Source of the DNA: an uncultured Desulfobacteraceae bacterium
GTDB lineage: Bacteria > Desulfobacterota > Desulfobacteria > Desulfobacterales > Desulfatirhabdiaceae
DNA: 57,509 bases
Reading direction: 5' to 3'
Assembly: GCA_903839535.1 (NCBI GenBank)
Contig: CAIMCT010000428.1
Location: 1-57,509 of the forward strand
This document shows, one piece after another, positions 1 through 57,474 of the stretch (position 1 is the stretch's first letter; each line of letters begins with the position of its first letter). Under the pieces are notes generated by a model. The model was not told the DNA's origin and searched no databases. It saw nothing but the letters and a program-made list of their open reading frames with translations. The position numbers and the translations under genes were made by a program.

Positions 1-309
1 GGGGATTTTTCAGGTGGATAGCCTCCTAAATCCCCCCTAACCCCCCTTTTTCAAAGGGGGGAATCCTTTCGATTTTAGTATTTTAGATTAGCGGGCACAA
101 GAGCGTTCGATGAAAATTAAGAATGATACAAAAAAATCACAGCACATCGGGAGGCGATTTACTCTTGTAATTCAAGGCAAATATATTGACACACGCCGGT
201 CCTTATGATAGCGACTCTTCCTGTTGGATCATCCGTAATGATGCTCTCGGAGAGCTGTTGTCCATTAGGGTTATTTTGGGTTTTTTCTGATTCAAACAAA
301 GGAGCTACC
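1..309. other. Intergenic region upstream of the repeat protein
   Basis: I see no gene here. It holds a C-tract/G-tract palindrome at about 28-61 (CCCCCC...AAAGGGGGG) that recurs at 10097-10122, and a short piece at 92-109 (GGGCACAAGAGCG) related to the CTCTTGTGTCGGCTAC repeat found elsewhere in the window. A frame is open from 205, but the Shine-Dalgarno (AAAGGAG at 298-304) sits before the ATG at 310, so the upstream part is taken as untranslated. Confidence 0.6.
28..61. repeat. Palindromic C-tract/G-tract intergenic repeat
   Basis: A run of C residues (tcccccctaaccccccttt) is followed by caaagggggg and can fold back on itself. A related element, cccccctttgaaagggggg, lies at 10097-10122 just upstream of the leuC-like gene. 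It belongs to the small dispersed palindromes of this genome; no function can be read from it. Confidence 0.6.
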
Positions 310-1035
310 ATGTCACACTCGGTACCCACGCCATTTTTATCCGGCGAGAATCTTCTCACGGACGACAATGATGTCATCCTTCTAACAGATGAAATACTCC
401 CATCAGATGATGATGGTGGTGATATCATTGAACTCTGTGATCTGGATGATCGTTCTGGTATCCAGGAATTTATGAAGTTTCCTGATTCAGCAAATGATAA
501 AACTGATTTTATTGATCTTTGCGATGTTCTCGAAGAGCCAGATTACAAACCAGATTACAAACCAGATTACAAACCAGATTACAAACCAGATTACAAACCA
601 GATTACAAACCAGATCACAAACCAGAACACAAGACAGACCACCTGCCGGAACTCTCCGAAACGGGAGCAGCAAAACTATCTGGCGGATACATATCCCCCG
701 ATACTGAATACCGGTTGGATGACCTTCAGCATTTAATTGATGAAGTAGTTCAAGATTCCCACGCGCCACATCGGGATTTCCCCGGAATTTATTCAGAGTT
801 CAACAAACCAACCGAAAAAGATGCCGCTATTTATGAAAAAATGGTGGCGTTTCAGCCCATGTACCAGATAGAAGCCGTTATGGAGAGGGTAATTCGAAAT
901 CTTTTTGCAGAAAGGATTGGACTTATTTTGGATGAAGTCGTAACAGCGACGGTTACACGAGAGATTGAAAATCTAAAAAAAATCCTTTTGGATTATCTGG
1001 CATCGGGTCGGTCTGCCGATAAAATCAAGTATTAG
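310..1035 (+). CDS. Acidic hypothetical protein with PDYK tandem repeats
   Basis: The product is about 241 residues and I do not recognise a family. The ATG at 310 is chosen because AAAGGAG precedes it at normal spacing. The N-terminal third is rich in Asp/Glu/Ser/Leu, with ILLTDEILPSDDDGG-type segments. The middle (about residues 78-113) is a run of the tetrapeptide PDYK (later PDHK, PEHK). The last ~60 residues, ending LLDYLASGRSADKIKY, look like a long amphipathic helix. This layout (acidic linker, low-complexity spacer, C-terminal helix) suggests a scaffold or polar adaptor protein, but that is inference. It is transcribed towards valS and separated from it by a terminator. Confidence 0.7.
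   Translation: MSHSVPTPFLSGENLLTDDNDVILLTDEILPSDDDGGDIIELCDLDDRSGIQEFMKFPDSANDKTDFIDLCDVLEEPDYKPDYKPDYKPDYKPDYKPDYKPDHKPEHKTDHLPELSETGAAKLSGGYISPDTEYRLDDLQHLIDEVVQDSHAPHRDFPGIYSEFNKPTEKDAAIYEKMVAFQPMYQIEAVMERVIRNLFAERIGLILDEVVTATVTREIENLKKILLDYLASGRSADKIKY
541..648 (+). repeat. 12-bp in-frame tandem repeat (PDYK)
   Basis: Six perfect copies of GATTACAAACCA are followed by two diverged copies (gatcacaaacca, gaacacaagaca). The unit is a multiple of three, so copy-number change by slippage would lengthen or shorten the protein without a frameshift. Confidence 0.95.
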
Positions 1036-1062
1036 TTTGGCATTTTTTACTGTTGTTCTTAC

Positions 1063-1100
1063 GGGATTGGGGAGCAAACGTGAATCCCCTTTTCTTTTTT
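1063..1100 (+). terminator. Rho-independent terminator after the repeat protein
   Basis: GGGATT and AATCCC pair around a loop of about 14 nt and are followed by CTTTTCTTTTTT. It lies between the repeat protein and valS and suggests that valS starts a new transcription unit. Confidence 0.6.
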
Positions 1101-1184
1101 ATGGCAAAGTCTCAGTGTTGTAAACATCGCACGATGATTGTTTATGAAAATCCCGTAATACTCATTTTTTCTTAGGAGTAAGTA

Positions 1185-3845
1185 ATGCTTATGGATCAGC
1201 CTGATAAAGGATACGAACCTCAGAATGTTGAAAAACGCTGGTATGCTTTCTGGGAAGAACATCAACTGTTTGCTGCAAATGAAAGCGATTCCCGTCCCGG
1301 TTATTCGATTGTTATTCCCCCTCCCAATGTCACCGGTGTTCTTCACATGGGACATGCGCTGAATGTAACGCTTCAGGATATCCTCTGTCGGTATCACCGA
1401 TTGAAAGGCCACAATGTTCTCTGGATGCCCGGCACTGATCATGCTGGGATCGCTACTCAAAATGTGGTGGAAAAAAAACTTGCAAGCGAAGGTCGAAGCC
1501 GGCAGCAACTTGGTCGGGAGAATTTTATTGATGCGGTGTGGGCATGGCGTAAAGAGTCCGGAAGCGCCATCATCCATCAACTCAAGCGACTAGGCGCATC
1601 CTGCGACTGGGCGCGGGAACGTTTTACGATGGATGAAGGACTGTCTCTATCTGTCAGAAAGGTTTTTGTTGAGCTTTATCACCAAGGGCTGATTTATCAG
1701 GGTGACTACATCATCAACTGGTGCCATCGCTGCCACACAGCGCTGTCTGACCTTGAAGTCGAGCATGAGGAGATTTCCGGAAATCTTTATCAGATACGTT
1801 ATCCCTTTCCCGATAATTCCGGTGGCATTGTGATCGCCACCACCCGGCCGGAAACCCTTTTCGGAGACACTGCTGTAGCCGTTCATCCAGAAGATGAAAG
1901 ATATCAGAATCTGCCTTCCGACACTGTCCTTCTGCCGCTTACGGATCGCCGTATCCCAATTATTCGGGATGCATTCGTGGGAATGTCCTTTGGAACCGGC
2001 GCATTAAAAGTGACACCAGCTCATGATCCGAATGACTTTGAAATCGGAAACCGGCACAACCTTCCCAGCCTCAAAGTAATTGACGATCATGGCCTCATGA
2101 CGGATGGCGCTGGTATATTCGAAGGAATGGACCGTTTCAAATGCCGGGAGGCCGTTGTTCAGAAGCTTCAGGAGCAGGGACTCCTGGTTGGAATTGAACC
2201 CTATCCCCACAATGTCGGCCACTGCTATCGATGCAAAACCGTTGTCGAACCCAATTTATCCAGACAGTGGTTTGTTAAAGCAAAACCGCTGGCTGAAAAA
2301 GCCATCGCGGCGGTTCAAAATGGCCAAACCCGTATCATACCTGAGGTTTGGGCTGCAAATTATTACGAATGGCTGAACAATGTCCGGGATTGGTGCATTT
2401 CCAGGCAGATATGGTGGGGACATCAGATTCCGGCGTGGACCTGTGAGGCCTGCGGAAAGATGACCGTATCCCTGATGCCGCCAGATACCTGCGCTTCATG
2501 CGGTCATTCGGTGTTGATTCAGGAAACCGACGTTCTGGATACCTGGTTCAGCTCTGCACTGTGGCCGTTTTCCACAATGGGCTGGCCGGAAAACAGTCCG
2601 TTGTTGAAAACTTTTTATCCCACTTCTGTTCTGGTAACCGGCTTTGATATTCTTTTTTTCTGGGTTGCCCGAATGATGATGATGGGTATCCATTTCATGG
2701 GTGATGTTCCCTTTAAGGATGTATATGTTCACGCCCTGGTTCGGGATGAAGCCGGCAAGAAAATGAGCAAGTCCAAAGGCAACGTGATTGATCCGCTAAC
2801 CATAATGGATCAGTATGGCACAGATGCCTTTCGTTTTACCCTTGCGGCGTTCGCCGCCCAGGGCAGGGATGTCAAGATGTCTGAAAAGCGGGTTGAGGGA
2901 TACCGGCACTTCATAAACAAGCTCTGGAATGCGTCCCGCTTTGCCTTGATGCACGTCAATCTGGATTCAACAACCATTCCAACTGGAGCATTGTCTCTTC
3001 CCAATCAATGGATTTTATCCCGGTCCGAAAGCGTGATCCAATCTGCTATAGAGGCGCTTGAGGCCTATCATTTCAATGATGCGGCGGGTCTGCTCTACCA
3101 GTTTGTCTGGCATGAACTCTGCGACTGGTATCTTGAGGCCGTCAAGCCAGCCTTGTACGGGAAAGAAGGAGATGCAATCCTGGAACAGACGCGGGCGGTG
3201 CTGTGGCGGGTTCTCAAAAACACACTGATCAGTCTTCATCCGTTCATCCCTTTTGTGACGGAAGAAATCTGGCATAAGCTGCCCGGAACCCAGGGCTCCA
3301 TTATGAATGCAAGGCTTCCACAGGACAGCGACCCCGGCTTTGGCCAGTTTGTGAATCCTGAATCCGAGCAGCAAATGGCCATCATTATCAACATAATTAC
3401 CGGTGTCAGAAATATCCGTGGTGAGATGAATCTTGCGCCGTCCTTAAAGCTTAATGCTCTGATTCAAACTGACCTTTCTGTAATCTCGGACACGATTCGC
3501 CAGCATGGAGATATCATCATTCACCTGGCAAGGCTGGAGAGACTCTCCGTTGACGTGCTGGGAGAAAGGCCGAAGTCGGCGGCAACCGCCATTGTCGAGG
3601 GCGCCATCATATATGTCCCCCTGGAAGGTATTCTTGATTTAACCAAAGAAATACAGCGTCTTGAAAAGGAAATTGAGAAGCTGAACGACGAGCTGAATGG
3701 CGTTTCCAAAAAATTGAATAACGATGATTTCCTAAGCAAGGCACCTGTAGATATCATTGAAAAGGTCAAGGGCAAACACGCTACACTGTCCGACAAACAG
3801 CAGCACCTGCAAAACAATCTGAATAAGATAAAGGCGCTCCTATGA
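1185..3845 (+). CDS. valS: Valyl-tRNA synthetase
   Basis: This class Ia aminoacyl-tRNA synthetase attaches valine to tRNA-Val in the cytoplasm. The 886 residues match the usual bacterial length. The HIGH signature appears as HMGHA at residues 54-58 and the KMSKS loop as GKKMSKSKGN near residue 525. The CP1 editing domain lies between them (TTRPETLFGDTAVAVHPED), and two CxxC zinc-type pairs are visible (CHRCH, CYRC). The C-terminus has the typical Val-RS coiled-coil arm (LTKEIQRLEKEIEKLNDEL). The start is supported by AGGAG six bases upstream. Its stop overlaps nadC by 4 bp, so the two are translationally coupled. Confidence 0.98.
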   Translation: MLMDQPDKGYEPQNVEKRWYAFWEEHQLFAANESDSRPGYSIVIPPPNVTGVLHMGHALNVTLQDILCRYHRLKGHNVLWMPGTDHAGIATQNVVEKKLASEGRSRQQLGRENFIDAVWAWRKESGSAIIHQLKRLGASCDWARERFTMDEGLSLSVRKVFVELYHQGLIYQGDYIINWCHRCHTALSDLEVEHEEISGNLYQIRYPFPDNSGGIVIATTRPETLFGDTAVAVHPEDERYQNLPSDTVLLPLTDRRIPIIRDAFVGMSFGTGALKVTPAHDPNDFEIGNRHNLPSLKVIDDHGLMTDGAGIFEGMDRFKCREAVVQKLQEQGLLVGIEPYPHNVGHCYRCKTVVEPNLSRQWFVKAKPLAEKAIAAVQNGQTRIIPEVWAANYYEWLNNVRDWCISRQIWWGHQIPAWTCEACGKMTVSLMPPDTCASCGHSVLIQETDVLDTWFSSALWPFSTMGWPENSPLLKTFYPTSVLVTGFDILFFWVARMMMMGIHFMGDVPFKDVYVHALVRDEAGKKMSKSKGNVIDPLTIMDQYGTDAFRFTLAAFAAQGRDVKMSEKRVEGYRHFINKLWNASRFALMHVNLDSTTIPTGALSLPNQWILSRSESVIQSAIEALEAYHFNDAAGLLYQFVWHELCDWYLEAVKPALYGKEGDAILEQTRAVLWRVLKNTLISLHPFIPFVTEEIWHKLPGTQGSIMNARLPQDSDPGFGQFVNPESEQQMAIIINIITGVRNIRGEMNLAPSLKLNALIQTDLSVISDTIRQHGDIIIHLARLERLSVDVLGERPKSAATAIVEGAIIYVPLEGILDLTKEIQRLEKEIEKLNDELNGVSKKLNNDDFLSKAPVDIIEKVKGKHATLSDKQQHLQNNLNKIKALL

Positions 3846-4669
3846 CACAGTTTCTTAACCAATTAATTGATATGGCGCTCGCCGAAGATATAGGCGCAGG
3901 CGATATCACCACCGATTATCTGGTTTCTTGCGACAGTCAGGGACAAGGAATAATTGTTGCTAAAGAAAATATAGTTCTTGCCGGATTGGATATTGCCAAA
4001 ATGGTTTTCCAGCGGCTCGATCCAAAGATTCACTTTCAATCAGCTTATGAAGACGGGGCAGAAATCGCCTGCGGGGAAACGGTGCTGTCTTTGGAAGGCA
4101 GGCTTAGAGCGCTTTTGACCGCAGAGCGGCCTGCTCTTAATTTTTTACAGCACCTGTCCGGCATCGCCACCCAAGTGCGGACTTATGTAAAAGCCCTCAA
4201 GAACAGCCGGGTCAAGCTTGTAGATACCCGAAAAACAACACCGGGATGGCGGGTTCTTGAAAAGTATGCAGTGCGTATGGGCGGAGCCCATAACCACAGG
4301 ATGGGACTTTTTGACGGCGTTCTGATAAAGGACAATCACATAGCCGCCTGCGGCGGGATTCAGCAAGCGGTCGCTGCAGTCAGAGAACATATTTCGCATC
4401 TTATCAAGATTGAAGTCGAGGTCTCGGACCTTGCTGGCATCCTTGATGCACTTAAATCCAAGGTGGATGTCATTATGCTCGACAATATGGATATCGCCCA
4501 TATTCGGGAGGCAGTTTCCGCTATCCGGAACCGAGCCATTGTGGAAGTCTCTGGCGGCATCACCCTTAAGCAATTAACCGCTCTGGCGCGAACCGGCGTT
4601 GATTTGATTTCGGTCGGAGCCATGACGCATTCGGCAAGGGCCGTGGATCTAAGTATGAGAATCCAATAA
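3842..4669 (+). CDS. nadC: Nicotinate-nucleotide pyrophosphorylase (carboxylating)
   Basis: Quinolinate phosphoribosyltransferase converts quinolinate and PRPP to nicotinate mononucleotide, CO2 and PPi in de novo NAD synthesis. The 275-residue length is normal. Diagnostic segments are LVDTRKTTPGWR, the MGGAHNHRMGLFDGVLIKDNH active-site region and the C-terminal VEVSGGI/DLISVGAMTHSA barrel strands. The ATG overlaps the valS stop (ATGA), an unusual but clear operon pairing. No nadA or nadB lies in the window. Confidence 0.97.
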   Translation: MTQFLNQLIDMALAEDIGAGDITTDYLVSCDSQGQGIIVAKENIVLAGLDIAKMVFQRLDPKIHFQSAYEDGAEIACGETVLSLEGRLRALLTAERPALNFLQHLSGIATQVRTYVKALKNSRVKLVDTRKTTPGWRVLEKYAVRMGGAHNHRMGLFDGVLIKDNHIAACGGIQQAVAAVREHISHLIKIEVEVSDLAGILDALKSKVDVIMLDNMDIAHIREAVSAIRNRAIVEVSGGITLKQLTALARTGVDLISVGAMTHSARAVDLSMRIQ

Positions 4670-4690
4670 CAGCAGGTAATTCACCAAATA

Positions 4691-4727
4691 TTGACCGTTG
4701 ACGGTCAACGGTCAACGGTCAACGTTG
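4691..4727. repeat. TTGACCGTTGACGGTCAACGG palindromic repeat
   Basis: A fold-back array of GTTGACC/GGTCAAC units sits between nadC and the rhomboid gene. Closely related elements occur at 16534-16563 and 45045-45073, always just outside a gene. A frame stays open through it, but the ATG at 4733 downstream is the better start. Confidence 0.8.
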
Positions 4728-4732
4728 TATAT

Positions 4733-5704
4733 ATGATCCCTATTCGCGACACTCTTTCTTCAAAGAATTACCCGGTGGTCAACACCGGCATAATCGGGCT
4801 GAATGTTCTGGTTTACCTGATCCAGATGGCCCAGGGAGGGCAGGAAGATCGATTTATATACATTTATGGTTTGGTGCCTGCCAGGTATTCCGTGCCCCAT
4901 ATCGCTTCCTACTTCAGCATCGAACAGCAGCTTTTTTCCCTGATCTCCTTCATGTTTCTGCATGGTGGTTTCTGGCATCTTCTGGGGAACATGTGGTCCC
5001 TGTATATTTTTGGCGACAATATCGAAGATCGCCTTGGATCCTTGCAGTACCTGCTGTTTTATCTGCTCTGCGGACTGACATCCGGCCTGTCCCATCTGCT
5101 GCTGAACCTCAATTCCAATGTTCCTACCATAGGAGCCAGCGGCGCGATCGCCGGGGTTATGGGTGCCTATTTTCTGCTCTTCCCAAAATCTCGAATTCTG
5201 ACATTGATTCCCATCTTGCTGATTCCGTTTTTTATAGAAATTCCGGCTTATTTTTATTTGGGGATATGGTTTCTTCTCCAGTTTCTGAGCGCTGCGGGCA
5301 GTTATGGCGGCGCTGGAGGCATCGCCTGGTGGGCGCATATAGGTGGCTTCGTTTCCGGAATGATCTTGTTAAAGTTCTTTCATATTCTTCCCGATTCCGG
5401 CTTCACAAAGCACCTGCGCAAAGTAACTGAAAAAAGAAAAACCTCCAGGCTTCAGGTTATTCGCACTTCAGGGGCTGGAAGCGAACCTCATCTCTACGGC
5501 GTGATTCAGGTCACTCCCTGGGAAGCTTTTTCGGGTGCAAACAAGATGGTTAACATTCCATGGGGATTTTATAACCGGACGATTCGCGTACAGGTACCGC
5601 CGAATATGAAACAGGGGTCAATCATCAGGCTCAAGGGAATGGGACGTCAGATGCCGGAAGGACTGCAAGGAGACCTCATGCTGAAAGTGACCATCCAGTC
5701 TTGA
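4733..5704 (+). CDS. Rhomboid-family intramembrane protease fused to a DnaJ C-terminal-like domain
   Basis: The first ~225 residues are a rhomboid: six or so hydrophobic segments, the N-terminal WHLLGNMWSLYIFGDNIEDR loop, the catalytic serine in GASGAIAGVMGAYF and the catalytic histidine in WAHIGGFVSG. It should cleave transmembrane substrates within the membrane. The last ~75 residues (YGVIQVTPWEAFSGA...VPPNMKQGSIIRLKGMG...GDLMLKVTI) read as a DnaJ/Hsp40 C-terminal substrate-binding domain on the cytoplasmic side. The start at 4733 is preferred over 4691 because the upstream codons lie in a repeat. It may be cotranscribed with nadC. It converges on the DUF2156 gene with only 4 bp between stops. 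Confidence 0.88.
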   Translation: MIPIRDTLSSKNYPVVNTGIIGLNVLVYLIQMAQGGQEDRFIYIYGLVPARYSVPHIASYFSIEQQLFSLISFMFLHGGFWHLLGNMWSLYIFGDNIEDRLGSLQYLLFYLLCGLTSGLSHLLLNLNSNVPTIGASGAIAGVMGAYFLLFPKSRILTLIPILLIPFFIEIPAYFYLGIWFLLQFLSAAGSYGGAGGIAWWAHIGGFVSGMILLKFFHILPDSGFTKHLRKVTEKRKTSRLQVIRTSGAGSEPHLYGVIQVTPWEAFSGANKMVNIPWGFYNRTIRVQVPPNMKQGSIIRLKGMGRQMPEGLQGDLMLKVTIQS

Positions 5705-5708
5705 TAGT

Positions 5709-6632
5709 TCAGCTTGGCGTTTTTTTAAGGACGAGTTCATAAGACTTTACCCGCATCACCGGATAATAGGACTGTTTGGCCTTGGCGAGTCCAGGAACAT
5801 TCATGTCGCTTTCCTTGTTGATAAAAACATACCCATTAAACAGAAGACGGGCGCATTGACTGTCAAAATACTGATAAAGACCTTTTATCCTTGAAAATGC
5901 CTTTTCAAAGTGCAAAACGCCCATAGCGGCTGTCAGATATGACCCGATGCCAAAGGCGCTGACCTTTCCATCTATACGCAATAACAGCCCCTGTGATGAA
6001 AAAACATCCAGATTCTGTAAGGTATTTAAGGCGGCCAGGCGTTCACAGGCCAAGTCTTCCTTCAGATTGGAGTCACATTTGCGCTCTTCGCACCACTCAT
6101 TCAGAAACTGGATACATTCCGGGGCTTGTTCCGGCGTTATTGGAGCCATACTAACCCGGCCCTTGTCAAGATACTCTTTGGTAAACTGGTTGATAAGATT
6201 ACGTTTTTTGGAATACTTGTTTCCTTTTAACTCCGCCAGATCCGATGTTCGATATACATAGTCGTCGTATTCCTCCTGTTCCCGAACCGTGAACAAGGCT
6301 TCCACACGCTTGATTTCATACTGCTGAAGATAAGTATCGGTAACAAACCAGTAGGATTTATAATCCAGTTTCCGGGCAAGCGCGTACAGGGCTTCGGGCG
6401 AATATTGTCTTTGAGGAGATATAGGCAGGATAAGGTGACGTTTTTCCTTCTGACGGTTAAATTCTGCGGATACAATCAGCGTATCGCCATCAATTGCTCC
6501 AAAAGGCTGATATTCATCATTGATCCAGGAAAGAAGCGATGGCAGGGAATAGACGCACAGGCGGTGCCGCTGGTGTTCAAAAAAAGGCTTCAGCAGAGGA
6601 TAATCCACTGGTGTTAGCGGTAATAATTTCAT
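5709..6632 (-). CDS. DUF2156 (phosphatidylglycerol lysyltransferase C-terminal-like, GNAT-fold) protein
   Basis: The 307-residue protein resembles the DUF2156 family, which has a duplicated acetyltransferase-like fold related to FemAB and to the soluble part of MprF. Visible features are the KGNKYSKKRNLINQFTKEY segment typical of this family, the FLNEWCEER helix and the closing FINKESDMNVPGLAKAKQSYYP motif. The substrate is unknown. It is the last gene of a minus-strand group with a GNAT protein (25 bp away) and a GGDEF response regulator. Confidence 0.85.
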   Translation of the reverse strand: MKLLPLTPVDYPLLKPFFEHQRHRLCVYSLPSLLSWINDEYQPFGAIDGDTLIVSAEFNRQKEKRHLILPISPQRQYSPEALYALARKLDYKSYWFVTDTYLQQYEIKRVEALFTVREQEEYDDYVYRTSDLAELKGNKYSKKRNLINQFTKEYLDKGRVSMAPITPEQAPECIQFLNEWCEERKCDSNLKEDLACERLAALNTLQNLDVFSSQGLLLRIDGKVSAFGIGSYLTAAMGVLHFEKAFSRIKGLYQYFDSQCARLLFNGYVFINKESDMNVPGLAKAKQSYYPVMRVKSYELVLKKTPS

Positions 6633-11457: not shown

Positions 11458-11467
11458 CTTCTCGCAG

Positions 11468-11517
11468 GTAGAGCCGGCATCCTACCAGCTCGGCAGCCGG
11501 CAAGATGCCGGCTCTAC
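11468..11517. repeat. GTAGAGCCGGCATC...GATGCCGGCTCTAC palindrome
   Basis: An almost perfect fold-back element of about 50 bp separates leuC and leuD. A sister copy sits at 57419-57470. Its position inside what should be one operon means that transcription either reads through it or is attenuated there. Confidence 0.85.
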
Positions 11518-11561
11518 GGATTTCTTTAACCAACAGCCACCCAAAACAAATGAGAGTATTT

Positions 11562-35817: not shown

Positions 35818-36879
35818 ATGGAAAAACTTAAACATACCATCGGTTCCATAAAAACACCCGACAGATTGATTTATGAAAAAGCTCTTGCGAGGCTTGCGGA
35901 TCAGGCGCGTCCGGCAGGGAGCCTGGGTATCCTCGAAAACGTTTCAGCCCGGCTTGCCGCCATCGCTGGGACTCTTGATGTTCGTCTTCAGAACAAGGTC
36001 ATTGTAACCTGTGCCGGCGATCATGGGATTGTAGCGGAAGGGGTTAGTCTATTTCCCCAGGAAGTGACTCCCCAGATGGTTTTGAATTTTGTTGGTGGAG
36101 GGGCTTCGATAAATGTACTCGGAAAGCATGCCGGCGCCAGGGTCATTGCCGCCGATCTGGGAGTCAATTACGACTTCGATCCAGCCCTTCCCATCTTTCA
36201 CAAGAAAATAGGAAAGGGAACGGCGAATTTTGCAAAAGGTCCGGCTATGACGCGGGAGGAAGCAATCCGATCCATCGAAGCCGGTATCGAGATCGTCGCT
36301 GAACTTCTCGGACAGGGGCCTGTGGATATTCTGGGTACCGGCGACATGGGGATTGGCAACACCACGCCATCAACTGCTGTCATTGCCGCATTTTCAGGGA
36401 TTCCGGTTGAAAAGCTGACGGGCCGGGGCACCGGTATTGGTGATGCCGCGCTCAGGAACAAGATCGCTGTCATCGAAAAAGCTTTGTTGATGCATTCGCC
36501 CGACTCTCGTGACCCTATTGATGTTCTCGCCAAGGTAGGCGGATTCGAGATCGGCGGACTGGCAGGGCTTGTGATCGGTGCGGCGGCAAAGGGGATTCCC
36601 GTGGTCTGCGACGGCTTTATCTCCACCGCAGGGGCGCTGATCGCCTGTGAGCTGGCTCCGGCTGCAAAGGCTTATCTGTTCACAAGCCACCGGTCCGTGG
36701 AGGTGGGGCACCGGTACATGCACGAGAGACTCGGCATCGAACCCCTGCTGGATATTGGCTTTCGGCTGGGAGAGGGAACGGGGGCCGCAATCGCCATGGA
36801 ACTGCTCGATGCCGCCACCCGGATTTTGGCGGATATCAAGACATTCGCGGAAGTGGCCATCAAAAATGCTCAGATCTGA
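35818..36879 (+). CDS. cobT: Nicotinate-nucleotide--dimethylbenzimidazole phosphoribosyltransferase
   Basis: CobT activates the lower-ligand base as its alpha-ribotide for attachment to cobamide. It has 353 residues from ATG 35818, which has AGGAGG upstream. Motifs: ARPAGSLGILENVSARLAAI, CAGDHGIVAEGVSLFPQEVT, GTGDMGIGNTTPSTAV, CDGFISTAGALIA and SHRSVEVGHRYMHERLG ending with the catalytic Glu in FRLGEGTGAAIAM. It overlaps the next gene by 14 bp. Confidence 0.97.
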   Translation: MEKLKHTIGSIKTPDRLIYEKALARLADQARPAGSLGILENVSARLAAIAGTLDVRLQNKVIVTCAGDHGIVAEGVSLFPQEVTPQMVLNFVGGGASINVLGKHAGARVIAADLGVNYDFDPALPIFHKKIGKGTANFAKGPAMTREEAIRSIEAGIEIVAELLGQGPVDILGTGDMGIGNTTPSTAVIAAFSGIPVEKLTGRGTGIGDAALRNKIAVIEKALLMHSPDSRDPIDVLAKVGGFEIGGLAGLVIGAAAKGIPVVCDGFISTAGALIACELAPAAKAYLFTSHRSVEVGHRYMHERLGIEPLLDIGFRLGEGTGAAIAMELLDAATRILADIKTFAEVAIKNAQI

Positions 36880-38536
36880 CGATCCTTCACGCAATAACAA
36901 TGGCGATGCCGATCCTTCCGATGTGGATTATCAGAACCTTGAGAATCTCTCCACTGCCTACTGGCAGTCGGAGGTTCTCTTTGCTGCGCTGGAACTGAAG
37001 CTCTTCGACCACATCGAAGCCGAACAGGCTACCACCAAAAAGATTTGTGTGCTATCCGGGTGCAGAGAGGAAGGTCTGTACCGTCTCCTGAAGGTGATGA
37101 AGCGGATGGAACTGATCGGGGAGAGCAAAGGGAACTGGTTCAACAACCAGGTTGCCCGGCGCTATCTGGTCAAGAAGAGTCCCTTCTACATGGGGGATTT
37201 TTTTCTCTACCGCCGCGCCATGCAGGAAAACTTTCGCCTTCTGACGCGGAAAATCTCTTCGGATGACGATCCTGAAGCGGCGAGCTGCGGACATTCTTGT
37301 TCTGTTTCAGATTCAGTGACAGATTCGATAGAAAATTACGCTGTCAGAAACTTCAACTATGTCCGGGCATTGGATCAACTGGCAAAGGAGAAGGCAAGAG
37401 AAATCGCTGAAATTCTCTTTCGTGCAACCTGGTTATCGCCAGTTCTCGATATCGGCGGCGGAGCAGGATCGCTTTGCCGCTGCCTCATGAAACGAATTAC
37501 GCTCTTGTGTCGGCTGAATTACGAATTAGGAATTCCTGATGCATCCGGTTTATCGCGGGGAGTTCTTCTGGACCTTCCAGAGGTGATTGAGGTTGCACGG
37601 AAGATTTATCCGGATGAAGCGGATTGGGAAGGGATCAAGACAGTCAGTGCCGACTTTCGTTTTCACGCGTTTGAAAAAGGGGAAACCTTTGGTCTGATCG
37701 TGATGAGCAATTTTCTCCATGCTTACGGAGAAAAAGAGGCCCGGAGCCTGCTCGAAAAGGCGCTTGGCCTTCTCAAGCCAGGGGGAAAGATTCTCATTCA
37801 CGACTATTTTCCCGACCGCCTGGGCCGCAGTCCGCAGAAGGGACCCATCTACGATCTTGCCATGATGCTGAATACCTATGACGGCGAGTGTCATGAGGCT
37901 GCCAGAGTGATTTCCTGGCTTGATGCAGCCGGCATTCGGCAAAGCGTTGTTCTTGATCTTGAAACAGACAGCTCTGTGATCCTGGCCGGGGAAAAACTTT
38001 CGCTCTTGTGTCCGCTACGGAATCATCTTGTCTCCTTGCCGCTTCAGTGGGCCGATATCGCTATTGCCGATGGATTCAGACTGGCAGTTCCCATCCCAAC
38101 GGAAAAGATTGTCACAGCCCCATGGGTCAGACTCAAATGCAGGTATGGATGCAAAGGTTTCGGAAAGAATCTTCAGTGCCCCCCGAACGGTCGGGACGAC
38201 TTAGATACAGAACGACTGCTCAGTTCCTACAAATGGGCGATTCTTCTGGAAGGAACCCCTCCCGGAAGACAGTTTCATCAACGGCTGCTCGGCCTTGAGA
38301 AAAAGGCTTTTCTCAGCGGACTGCACAAGGCATTTGCCATGGGTGCCGGTCCATGCACGGTTTGCGACAATTGTCCCGGCGAGGGGGCTTGCAACAGAAG
38401 TGATCTGGCCCGGCCTTCGATGGAGGCCACGGGGATCGATGTCTATCAGACGGCAAAAGAAGCTGGCCTGCATTTGGTTCCGGTGAAGGAGAAGGGGCAG
38501 TATGTCAAATACATCGGTTTGCTGTTATTGGAGTAA
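36866..38536 (+). CDS. bzaC: BzaC-like O-methyltransferase fused to a DUF2284 domain
   Basis: The product has 556 residues. Residues ~20-375 are a class I methyltransferase of the plant-type dimerising group (AYWQSEVLFAALELKLFDHI, VLDIGGGAGSLCRCLM, GVLLDLPEVIEVA, FLHAYGEKEARSLLEKAL, GGKILIHDYF). BzaC methylates 5-hydroxybenzimidazole. Residues ~385-556 are a Cys-rich DUF2284 domain (LKCRYGCKGFGKNLQCPP, CTVCDNCPGEGACNR), probably metal-binding. Two segments look inserted: about 20 residues after LMKR (37494-37556) carrying the CGCTCTTGTGTCGGCT repeat, and CGHSCSVSDSVTDSIENYAV near residue 145. The linker between the two domains also carries a repeat copy (38001-38018). Confidence 0.85.
   Translation: MLRSDDPSRNNNGDADPSDVDYQNLENLSTAYWQSEVLFAALELKLFDHIEAEQATTKKICVLSGCREEGLYRLLKVMKRMELIGESKGNWFNNQVARRYLVKKSPFYMGDFFLYRRAMQENFRLLTRKISSDDDPEAASCGHSCSVSDSVTDSIENYAVRNFNYVRALDQLAKEKAREIAEILFRATWLSPVLDIGGGAGSLCRCLMKRITLLCRLNYELGIPDASGLSRGVLLDLPEVIEVARKIYPDEADWEGIKTVSADFRFHAFEKGETFGLIVMSNFLHAYGEKEARSLLEKALGLLKPGGKILIHDYFPDRLGRSPQKGPIYDLAMMLNTYDGECHEAARVISWLDAAGIRQSVVLDLETDSSVILAGEKLSLLCPLRNHLVSLPLQWADIAIADGFRLAVPIPTEKIVTAPWVRLKCRYGCKGFGKNLQCPPNGRDDLDTERLLSSYKWAILLEGTPPGRQFHQRLLGLEKKAFLSGLHKAFAMGAGPCTVCDNCPGEGACNRSDLARPSMEATGIDVYQTAKEAGLHLVPVKEKGQYVKYIGLLLLE
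37500..37516. repeat. CGCTCTTGTGTCGGCT repeat copy inside bzaC
   Basis: Seventeen bases match the palindromic repeat at 38828-38884 (one arm). It lies in an apparent in-frame insertion between the methyltransferase glycine motif and the GVLLDLPEV segment. Confidence 0.65.
38001..38018. repeat. CGCTCTTGTGTCCGCTAC repeat copy inside bzaC
   Basis: It differs by one base from the repeat arm in bzaD. It sits at the junction between the methyltransferase and DUF2284 domains and may mark where the two were joined. Confidence 0.5.
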
Positions 38537-38539
38537 GTA

Positions 38540-39949
38540 ATGAAAATTTTCCTTGTTCAGCTTCCCACTTCCCACCACGGCTCCGGCGAGAAAGTCTATC
38601 CCCTGGGCCTTTCCAGGCTTTCCAGTCTTGTTCCGGCGGAATACACAAAAAATGCTCTGGACATGAATCTTTTTCCCGACCCATGGCCGGAGTTGAAAAA
38701 GGGGATCGAATATCTGCGACCGGACATTGTTGCTTTTTCCCTGAGAAACATTGACCCTCTTGCCGGCCACATGGTCTCCTATCTTTCATCCCTAAAAACA
38801 GCCGTCGCCCTGGTGCGAAAAATAGCGGACGCTCTTGTAGCCGACGCTCTTGTGTCGGCTACAAGAGCGTCGGCTACAAGAGCGCTTCCGGATACGCGGA
38901 TATTGGTTGGAGGTCCTGCCTTTTCCCTCTTTGGAACACGGCTAATGGAAGCGGTTCCCGATATCGACTATGGATTGGTGGGGGAAGGGGAGCGTGCGTT
39001 TCCCGCAATCATTGGAAGCTGTATCGATGCCGGTGCGGTTCCGGGTCTGCTCTGGCGAAAAGATGGCATTATCCATGAGAATATACCGGGTCCGCGCATT
39101 TCTCTGGATGAGATTCCCCCCATGGATATTGCCACCTTCGATCCTGCGGATTACACCAAGGGAAATGCATATATCGCCGCTGTCGGGATAGAGGGAAAGC
39201 GCGGGTGTGATCTAAGCTGCGGCTACTGTGTTTACCCCAGCCTCAGCGGGGGGAGAATGCGCCTTAGGCATCCGGAGAAAATCGTGGATGAGATCGAATT
39301 TCTGAACCGGGAACACGGCATCGCTCTCTTTCATTTCACGGATGCGGTGGTCAACCGGCCTGTCGATCATTTCGAGGCGTTGATGGAAGAGCTCATTCGC
39401 CGAAAACTTGATGTCAGTTGGACAGGCTTTTTCAGAGAAGACACCCTGGATCACAGGCTCGCAGCGCTGGCCCAGGCCGCAGGACTGGTCGCCATCTATT
39501 TTTCAGCGGATTCACTTACGGAGTACGGTTTGAAACTTCTCGGAAAACGGCTGAGCAAGCAGGATATTCTGAGGGCGGCAAAGGTTACTGCCGATAGCCA
39601 TATTCTGACCGTATGCCATTTTCTGCTTAACCTTCCCGGAGACGGTGATGTAGAAACAATAGAGGCCTGGGAAACGCTGGATCGCTTGCTTGAAATACAT
39701 GAAGGCGCCGCAAATCTTGGGGCCGTGATCTTCAACCATGTCAGGCTCTATCCCGGGGCGCCGCTGACAAAGCGGCTGATCAGAGGGGGGAATCTCTCCC
39801 CCGAGATTGATCTCCTTTACCCATTCTATCATAACCCACCGAGATTCTCCCATCTCCTTCACGAGATGGAAGCCTACTGCCACTGCGCCGGTGTTTTTTC
39901 GAGGCTGAAACCGGCGTTTAGCAGGGTGTCGAGCATGGAGAATACATGA
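38540..39949 (+). CDS. bzaD: B12-binding radical SAM protein (BzaD-like)
   Basis: A 469-residue radical SAM enzyme with an N-terminal cobalamin-binding-type domain (residues 1 to ~165) and the CX3CX2C cluster motif in KRGCDLSCGYCVYP (~residue 220). In known bza operons BzaD/BzaE add methyl groups to the benzimidazole ring. Residues ~96-115 (ADALVADALVSATRASATRA) are encoded by a palindromic repeat inserted in frame before LPDTRILVGGPAFSLFG. The stop overlaps the next gene by 4 bp. The assignment to D rather than E follows gene order. Confidence 0.82.
   Translation: MKIFLVQLPTSHHGSGEKVYPLGLSRLSSLVPAEYTKNALDMNLFPDPWPELKKGIEYLRPDIVAFSLRNIDPLAGHMVSYLSSLKTAVALVRKIADALVADALVSATRASATRALPDTRILVGGPAFSLFGTRLMEAVPDIDYGLVGEGERAFPAIIGSCIDAGAVPGLLWRKDGIIHENIPGPRISLDEIPPMDIATFDPADYTKGNAYIAAVGIEGKRGCDLSCGYCVYPSLSGGRMRLRHPEKIVDEIEFLNREHGIALFHFTDAVVNRPVDHFEALMEELIRRKLDVSWTGFFREDTLDHRLAALAQAAGLVAIYFSADSLTEYGLKLLGKRLSKQDILRAAKVTADSHILTVCHFLLNLPGDGDVETIEAWETLDRLLEIHEGAANLGAVIFNHVRLYPGAPLTKRLIRGGNLSPEIDLLYPFYHNPPRFSHLLHEMEAYCHCAGVFSRLKPAFSRVSSMENT
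38828..38884. repeat. Palindromic repeat inserted in frame in bzaD
   Basis: CGCTCTTGTAGCCGAC pairs with GTCGGCTACAAGAGCG around GCTCTTGT, and another GTCGGCTACAAGAGCG-type arm follows. Relatives occur at 47444-47497 and 53632-53666 (intergenic), 37500 and 38001 (in bzaC) and 92-109. The insert is a multiple of three and keeps the gene open. Confidence 0.9.
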
Positions 39950-47443: not shown

Positions 47444-47497
47444 TAGCCGACGCTCTTGTGGCGGCTAAAAGAGCGTTTGAAAGCCGACACAAGAGCG
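47444..47497. repeat. GACGCTCTTGTGGCGGCTAAAAGAGCG palindrome
   Basis: A diverged copy of the 38828-38884 repeat with its two arms (AGCCGACGCTCTTGT and ACAAGAGCG) in intergenic DNA upstream of the AlbA_2 gene. Confidence 0.8.
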
Positions 47498-53579: not shown

Positions 53580-53631
53580 TATGATTCCCCCTTTTTTTGT
53601 TCATGAAAGATTAGATACCCGGTGTAAATTA

Positions 53632-53666
53632 GTCGACGCTCTGGTGTCGGCTACAAGAGCGTGTCC
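53632..53666. repeat. GTCGACGCTCTGGTGTCGGC palindrome
   Basis: CGACGCTCTGGTGTCGGCTACAAGAGCG is a copy of the 38828-38884 family, lying in the 5' leader of mtaB. Confidence 0.8.
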
Positions 53667-57314: not shown

Positions 57315-57418
57315 AATCAAATTCCTTTCCTCATTTAAAATTGAATATTGAAATGGCTCCGGCAGGAACCACGTACATCCTTTGGTCAGATATACTGTAC
57401 ACTGGCATAATCTTTCGC

Positions 57419-57470
57419 CGTAGAGCCGGCATCTTGCCGGCTGCTGCAGCCGGCAGGATGCCGGCTCTAC
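57419..57470. repeat. GTAGAGCCGGCATC...GATGCCGGCTCTAC palindrome
   Basis: A near-perfect fold-back; the sister of 11468-11517. The two share both arms almost exactly and differ in the loop region. Confidence 0.9.
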
Positions 57471-57474
57471 TTGC

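Follow-up and report, generated by a model that had tools for sequence, protein, structure and literature searches.

The 57,509-bp contig CAIMCT010000428.1 of an uncultured Desulfobacteraceae bacterium (GCA_903839535.1), hereafter the window, carries copies of one short sequence both between its genes and inside the reading frames of two metabolic genes, bzaC and bzaD. What kind of element enters coding sequence in this way? A preliminary description regarded it as a palindromic repeat that resembles the protein-coding insertions known from Rickettsia and might be exapted as peptide. Our analysis used the assembled sequence of the genome to which the window belongs (G000, with the window as contig C428; 5.66 Mb, 580 contigs, 99.46% complete). 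The repeated unit is not the palindrome but a non-palindromic sequence of 15 bp, designated V (GCTCTTGTGTCGGCT, variable at positions 9-10), and the palindromes are secondary nests of V. We consider it probable that V is a non-autonomous mobile repeat, which targets AC/R (the slash marks the insertion point; R is A or G), causes no target duplication and inserts into itself to form a ladder of nests.

The repeated unit, its target and its empty sites

V consists of GCTCTTGT (y) followed by GTCGGCT (x), and is common to the palindromes and half-palindromes that the preliminary description had named. In the window, CGCTCTTGT occurs 10 times, as against a mean of 0.43 and a maximum of 3 in 100 shuffles. 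Genome-wide, a pattern with positions 9-10 free and G or C at position 12 found 148 exact copies, and the same search with the reversed pattern found none. The copies considered below carry at most one or two mismatches and lie far enough from contig ends to have usable flanks.

Among 291 genomes of the class (G000 and 290 others), 57 contain any match to V. Outside G000 the counts are 0-3, except for 11 in one genome (G232); this candidate family was rejected, since its 11 exact matches all lie inside one identical longer repeat, a different one. The 17-mer made of C, V and A has 83 copies in G000 and was absent from all 37 relatives searched, and an inverted pair of V units (at most one mismatch) was found in only one of the 395 genomes of a phylum sample, the window's own. 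The same-genus comparison genome, G001, contains no exact V. A similar family was sought in 1.5 Mb of G001, where seven 13-mers reach six unrelated contexts with 6-8 copies each; no clear family emerged. A viral source was also discarded, since two 17-mers gave five contigs with one match each, which we took as chance.

V lies between the C and the purine of AC/A or AC/G. Across 44 collapsed contexts, C precedes the unit (position -1) in 39 and A stands at -2 in 35, while the base at +1 is A 31 times and G 12 times, but this set is biased, having been found partly with a pattern that required C before and A after the unit. In a set collected without regard to the flanks (contigs C1-C378, except the places in C357 and C378), AC/R is present in 20 of the 22 collapsed contexts, against a background of 2.3% of positions.

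Sites lacking V provide the edges of the unit. For orthologous sites, we compared the V clusters with 1.53 Mb of reference DNA, comprising G001 stretches and four loci with BzaD orthologues (L172-L175). The four named BzaD relatives come from metagenome genomes of Desulfobacterales or Deltaproteobacteria. Both flanks were matched for 14 of 130 clusters, and four of the 14 sites are clean, with net gains of +15 bp in bzaC (38002), +30 bp in an ABC ATPase gene (L129), +45 bp in a GH26-like gene (L132) and +60 bp in bzaD. The bzaC gain is an exact 15-bp insertion relative to G001; that in bzaD is an exact 60-bp insertion relative to both G001 and L174, and the orthologues in L172-L175 all lack exactly the 20 residues that it encodes in frame (ADALVADALVSATRASATRA). 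A dispersed repeat that keeps the frame inside both genes had been proposed from the window alone, with about 20 residues added to bzaD. This proposal holds for bzaD, to the residue, and for bzaC 38002, and at neither place did an orthologue without the repeat have the same residues. The proposal fails for the other bzaC copy, at 37501, as a clean insertion: it gave no clean alignment with G001 and a net difference of -27 bp relative to L174, and it lies in a variable linker holding another short tandem repeat. With V left out, the CGAATTA tandem reads unbroken there, as does a short tandem repeat at a further locus (L141).

Among the other matched sites, one shows a net +75 bp in an unclear alignment (L060) and one a net -7 bp relative to the reference (L132 2729), and at four loci (L060, L083, L097 and L105) no clean edge could be drawn against an orthologue. 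At seven of the 14 matched sites G000 is longer by 70-243 bp, several of these stretches being host repeats that contain V. Stretches 197-236 bp longer than in G001, with V-bearing host repeats, were also noted at L105, L130, L093, L097 and L195; such stretches of about 200 bp may themselves be mobile elements.

Paralogous copies of the host repeats gave filled and empty sites within the genome itself. The host repeat F1 is empty as GACGAC/AAAACAAGAG or GACGAC/AAAAGCGAAG (contigs C9 and C415), and in filled copies V stands between the C and the A of the junction GACGAC/AAAA. One pattern found 18 F1 places: V is present in 11 (with one mismatch in two of them), diverged in one and absent from six; places fitting on both strands appear twice in this list. 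The host repeat F4 is empty as GTGAGAAAC/AATTTTCATTCATGG (C101 and C504), with the junction GTGAGAAAC/AATTTTC; a variant is empty in C185, and V is present in C122 and C192. No base is duplicated at filled relative to empty sites of F1 and F4. Together, these comparisons establish the edges of the unit to within one base. Since the C and the A are already there in the empty copies, plain insertion is favoured over a replacement of 2 bp by 17.

Nests, tandems and template switching

The reverse strand of V reads AGCCGAC/ACAAGAGC and thus has the target, AC/A, at its own centre. A unit inserted at the centre of an inverted V gives the palindrome x' y x y' (30 bp), and further rounds give 45 and then 60 bp. 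The 122 distinct contexts comprise 88 single units, 20 double and 10 triple nests and four that were called higher, so that 34 are nested; some of the triple and higher calls included a poor outer layer, which was trimmed in the flank clustering. In every nest found, the inner unit is inverted relative to the outer one. No nest of units in the same orientation was present among the genome stretches examined, as the target rule predicts, because V in forward orientation has no AC/R at its centre. The centres of about 150 V copies make up 0.06% of the AC/R sites, compared with 34 of 122 contexts that are nested. The ladder is seen at a single position in F4, where the host-repeat type holds 0, 1, 2, 3 or 4 units; its flank cluster has eight single, eight double, four triple and one quadruple member, in addition to the empty ones. 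Head-to-tail tandems also occur, with seven units in a polyketide synthase (PKS) gene (L096) and three in the gene of a LysM protein (L089).

The main rival explanation for nests and tandems is that V was dispersed somehow and that the higher forms grew in place, by polymerase template switching, in which the copying strand passes to the opposite strand at the y/x junction, reads off a single unit and returns. Nests and tandems do gain whole units, the F4 ladder stands at one host-repeat position, most of the seven units in L096 are alike, and, judging from the sequence, the flanking C and A would offer one base of homology at both jumps. Template switching leaves unexplained, however, why single units occur at unrelated sites with a common AC/R target. 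The subtypes at positions 9-10 lower its standing further: inner and outer units differ in nine of the 20 twofold nests (six with GT outside and GG inside) and agree in 11, and the L089 tandem is likewise of mixed subtypes. The inner unit therefore need not be a local copy, and the mixed nests suggest that some nests received a unit from elsewhere by insertion, albeit that several of these nine belong to the same host type (GTTGACC) and the independent cases are fewer. On this evidence we regard template switching as rather unlikely, while still the rival to be reckoned with.

Possible agents and related elements

The comparisons show net gains of 15 bp or a multiple between the C and the R of AC/R, with no duplication of the target. 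V also occupies the target on its own reverse strand, in inverted orientation, yielding the ladder of 15, 30, 45 and 60 bp, and head-to-tail tandems are present as well. A trans-acting enzyme would presumably recognise V or its nests together with the AC/R target. Its substrate is perhaps single-stranded DNA, as for HUH/Y1 enzymes, a suggestion prompted by the missing duplication and the lopsided target. More tentatively, and with doubts that outweigh our confidence, we propose that V represents a distinct class of mobile DNA, that this codon-sized unit is moved by a candidate new enzyme which places it at AC/R without duplication, that its own reverse strand is the preferred target, and that palindromes grow from it stepwise, also in conserved genes.

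Several points weigh against mobility of V itself. Many copies have been multiplied inside longer host repeats (76 of 121 contexts fall in seven flank clusters of 6-21 members, one of which, with nine members, is led by head-to-tail tandem units), so that independent insertions are fewer than copies. The orthologous tests are few, and at all four clean sites at least one base adjoining V differs from G001, which leaves room there for a 17-for-2 replacement bringing in the C and the A. Furthermore, no candidate for the moving enzyme was supported in the genome. Its sole Y1 transposase match is a 347-aa open reading frame (L138 1368-2411) beside another hairpin (CATGAAATAATGGA...TCCATTATTTCATG), the 4.3-kb stretch around it contains no V at up to two mismatches, and G001 has five Y1 matches yet no exact V. 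Y1 proteins, including REP-associated tyrosine transposases (RAYTs), were thus rejected as the driver, with a single match, no V nearby, and same-genus genomes that have Y1 but few or no V.

The same evidence bears on the possibility that V belongs to a repetitive extragenic palindromic (REP)/REPIN system mobilised by a RAYT-like Y1 protein of this genome. The Y1 match exists, and the nests are palindromic, high in copy number and restricted to this genome. In the parts of the literature accessible to us, REP, REPIN and RAYT systems likewise show high copy number, species specificity, frequent dimers and some intragenic copies (PMC3116915, PMC6006769, PMC3733652). A REP, by contrast, is described there as a hairpin whose base is tagged with GTAG or CGTC, whereas V is single in 88 of the 122 contexts and then lacks an inverted repeat. 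A RAYT gene is flanked by its repeat, whereas the neighbourhood of the Y1 match has a different hairpin and no V, and same-genus genomes with only 0-3 matches to V have Y1 matches too. We therefore hold a REP/REPIN origin to be improbable.

Closer than the Rickettsia elements, in our view, are the very small dispersed repeats (SDRs) of cyanobacteria, with which we place V. As far as the accessible text goes, the SDRs of Elhai et al. (2008) measure some 20 bp and are perhaps mobile, and one is precisely inserted inside HIP1 (PMC4390886, PMC2884548, PMC3116915). Like V, they are very short, dispersed in unrelated contexts and possibly mobile (PMC2884548), and the precise insertion at a short target parallels the AC/R preference of V (20 of 22 collapsed contexts). 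They differ in length (some 20 bp versus 15 bp) and in phylum. The available descriptions mention neither a self-nesting ladder nor a codon-sized unit. Miniature inverted-repeat transposable elements (MITEs) are also non-autonomous dispersed repeats, but they have terminal inverted repeats and target duplications, neither of which V has when filled sites in F1 and F4 are compared with empty ones; V measures about one-fifth of the 70-bp minimum given for MITEs in the accessible part of one source (PMC3733652). No 15-bp self-nesting unit was found in the literature searched, which covers few subscription journals.

If V does move with precision, few mobile units known to us would be as small. 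A sequence of 15 bp would be too short for the classical pair of transposon ends. Its whole-codon length would also amount to natural five-residue insertion mutagenesis in genes for MutL, a histidine kinase, PKS and nonribosomal peptide synthetase (NRPS) proteins and B12 enzymes. The ladder of 0-4 units at one host-repeat position illustrates a route from a simple unit to a palindrome, which may be an origin of REP-like repeats.

Copies inside genes and in the window

A hand tally of V in genes, each an open reading frame supported by a Pfam domain or an orthologue, gave 28 clusters in 20 genes; leaving out an N-terminal case at residue 6 (L089 2538) reduces this to 27 in 19. It covers the frames scanned, and sets aside V-hosting frames that lack Pfam support (L193, L123, L139 and the first frame of L066) and N-terminal cases with a doubtful start (L070, L074, L113 2485 and L132 2729). 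V is seen in linkers and loops of genes with conserved domains, and in proteins with mapped domains it is often interdomain (Table 1), but it also occurs inside domains, in a PKS acyltransferase (L068), in NRPS domains (L113 and L119) and in a helix-turn-helix protein (L066). The L068 protein aligned to 4mz0 with gaps of 15 and 3 residues at the V site. A structure model placed the bzaD insert after a predicted helix (78-98) and before a predicted strand (120-124), with residues 102-114 at a predicted local distance difference test score (pLDDT) below 50, but this model is weak (mean pLDDT 56.4, five sequences). In a PKS-type frame of 1983 aa (L075, contig C109 of G000, 650-6598), five V units are all in frame, and the inter-domain stretches resemble non-coding repeats of other kinds (GTTGACC/GGTCAAC and TATTTCGG-like), also in frame.

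V is frame-neutral in genes, because its 15 bp make five codons and it contains no stop in any frame; the junctions can create a stop in two of the six phases. The phases fall into three classes, with 20 of the 28 clusters read as ALVSA/ADTRA and four in each of the other two. Among stop-free AC/R sites in open reading frames the ALVSA/ADTRA share is 0.42 (p = 0.0017; p = 0.003 for 19 of 27). Stops were checked site by site in this test, and counting only one stop-making phase gives p = 0.0004. With one vote per gene and the mixed gene L075 left out, the class holds 15 of 19 (p ~0.001), and with two homologous NRPS sites merged 14 of 18 (p ~0.002). This bias is only suggestive, because clusters within one gene are not independent, and it would fit a filtering for harmless peptides rather than a function. 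The encoded peptide would then be a tolerated by-product, screened for harmlessness alone.

Exaptation as peptide, as first supposed, was not borne out, given the three phase classes of the inserts. This also bears on the reading of V as a selfish protein-coding palindrome of the Rickettsia palindromic element (RPE) type. The accessible parts of the sources describe RPEs as palindromic elements, roughly 150 bp long and encoding a conserved peptide (PMC10969869), inserted in frame in unrelated genes (PMC10969869, PMC3733652). The likeness drawn earlier stands for the in-frame behaviour, which the orthologues confirm and which V displays in bzaC (38002), bzaD, the ABC ATPase and the GH26-like gene. 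It does not extend to the unit, which the empty sites define as non-palindromic and about one-tenth the length of an RPE, nor to a single conserved peptide, the phase classes numbering 20, 4 and 4 of 28 clusters. As many copies moreover lie within host repeats, we consider an RPE-type element very unlikely. A selected functional motif (an uptake sequence or a protein-binding site) or an assembly artefact might account for many copies, some close to contig ends, but is hardly credible in view of the exact empty sites, orthologous and paralogous, and the in-frame copies in conserved-domain genes across many contigs.

The window contains repeat copies at all the places named in the preliminary description, with corrected positions (38824-38883 in bzaD, for example), and one further copy (Table 1). 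Both bzaC copies are single 15-bp units, not palindromes. The protein of this gene matched no curated model of BzaC.

Table 1. V units and nests in the window with their host genes, and V sites in proteins with mapped domains
Feature	Position	Strand	Remarks
V unit, CCCGCT subtype	90..104	-	within the longer host repeat F3; absent from the preliminary description
bzaC (name from the preliminary description)	36866..38536	+	556 aa; O-methyltransferase fused to DUF2284 (Pfam PF00891, PF10050); two V units
V unit GCTCTTGTGTCGGCT in bzaC linker	37501..37515	+	read TLLCRL; within short CGAATTA tandem
V unit GCTCTTGTGTCCGCT in bzaC	38002..38016	+	read SLLCPL; between methyltransferase and DUF2284 domains
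bzaD, B12-binding radical SAM protein	38540..39949	+	hosts 60-bp nest; TIGR04385 BzaD 390.7 bits, under the cut-off of 450
Fourfold V nest in bzaD	38824..38883	-	4 x 15 bp, orientation alternating; adds 20 residues
Twofold V nest	47445..47474	-	30 bp, between open reading frames; in no frame of at least 50 aa
Single V unit	47482..47496	-	7 bp from the 47445-47474 nest
Twofold V nest	53631..53660	-	30 bp, between open reading frames; in no frame of at least 50 aa
MutL	V at residue 374		DNA_mis_repair to 332, MutL_C from 429
Histidine kinase	V at residue 803		HATPase to 746, receiver from 824
SPOR protein	V at residue 233		SPOR domain from 250
PKS	V at residues 811-846		acyltransferase to 696, carrier domain from 1018

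Other repeats were also noted in the window. Positions 514-657 hold a tandem repeat with a unit of 12 bp (CCAGATTACAAA, with variants), and a second REP-like inverted repeat, of the GTAGAGCCGGCATCTTGCCGGCTGC type, lies at 11464-11519 and 57418-57474. Three copies of a CGTTGACCGTGAACGG-type repeat were found at 4695, 16533 and 45045, and a similar type flanks nested V in L075.

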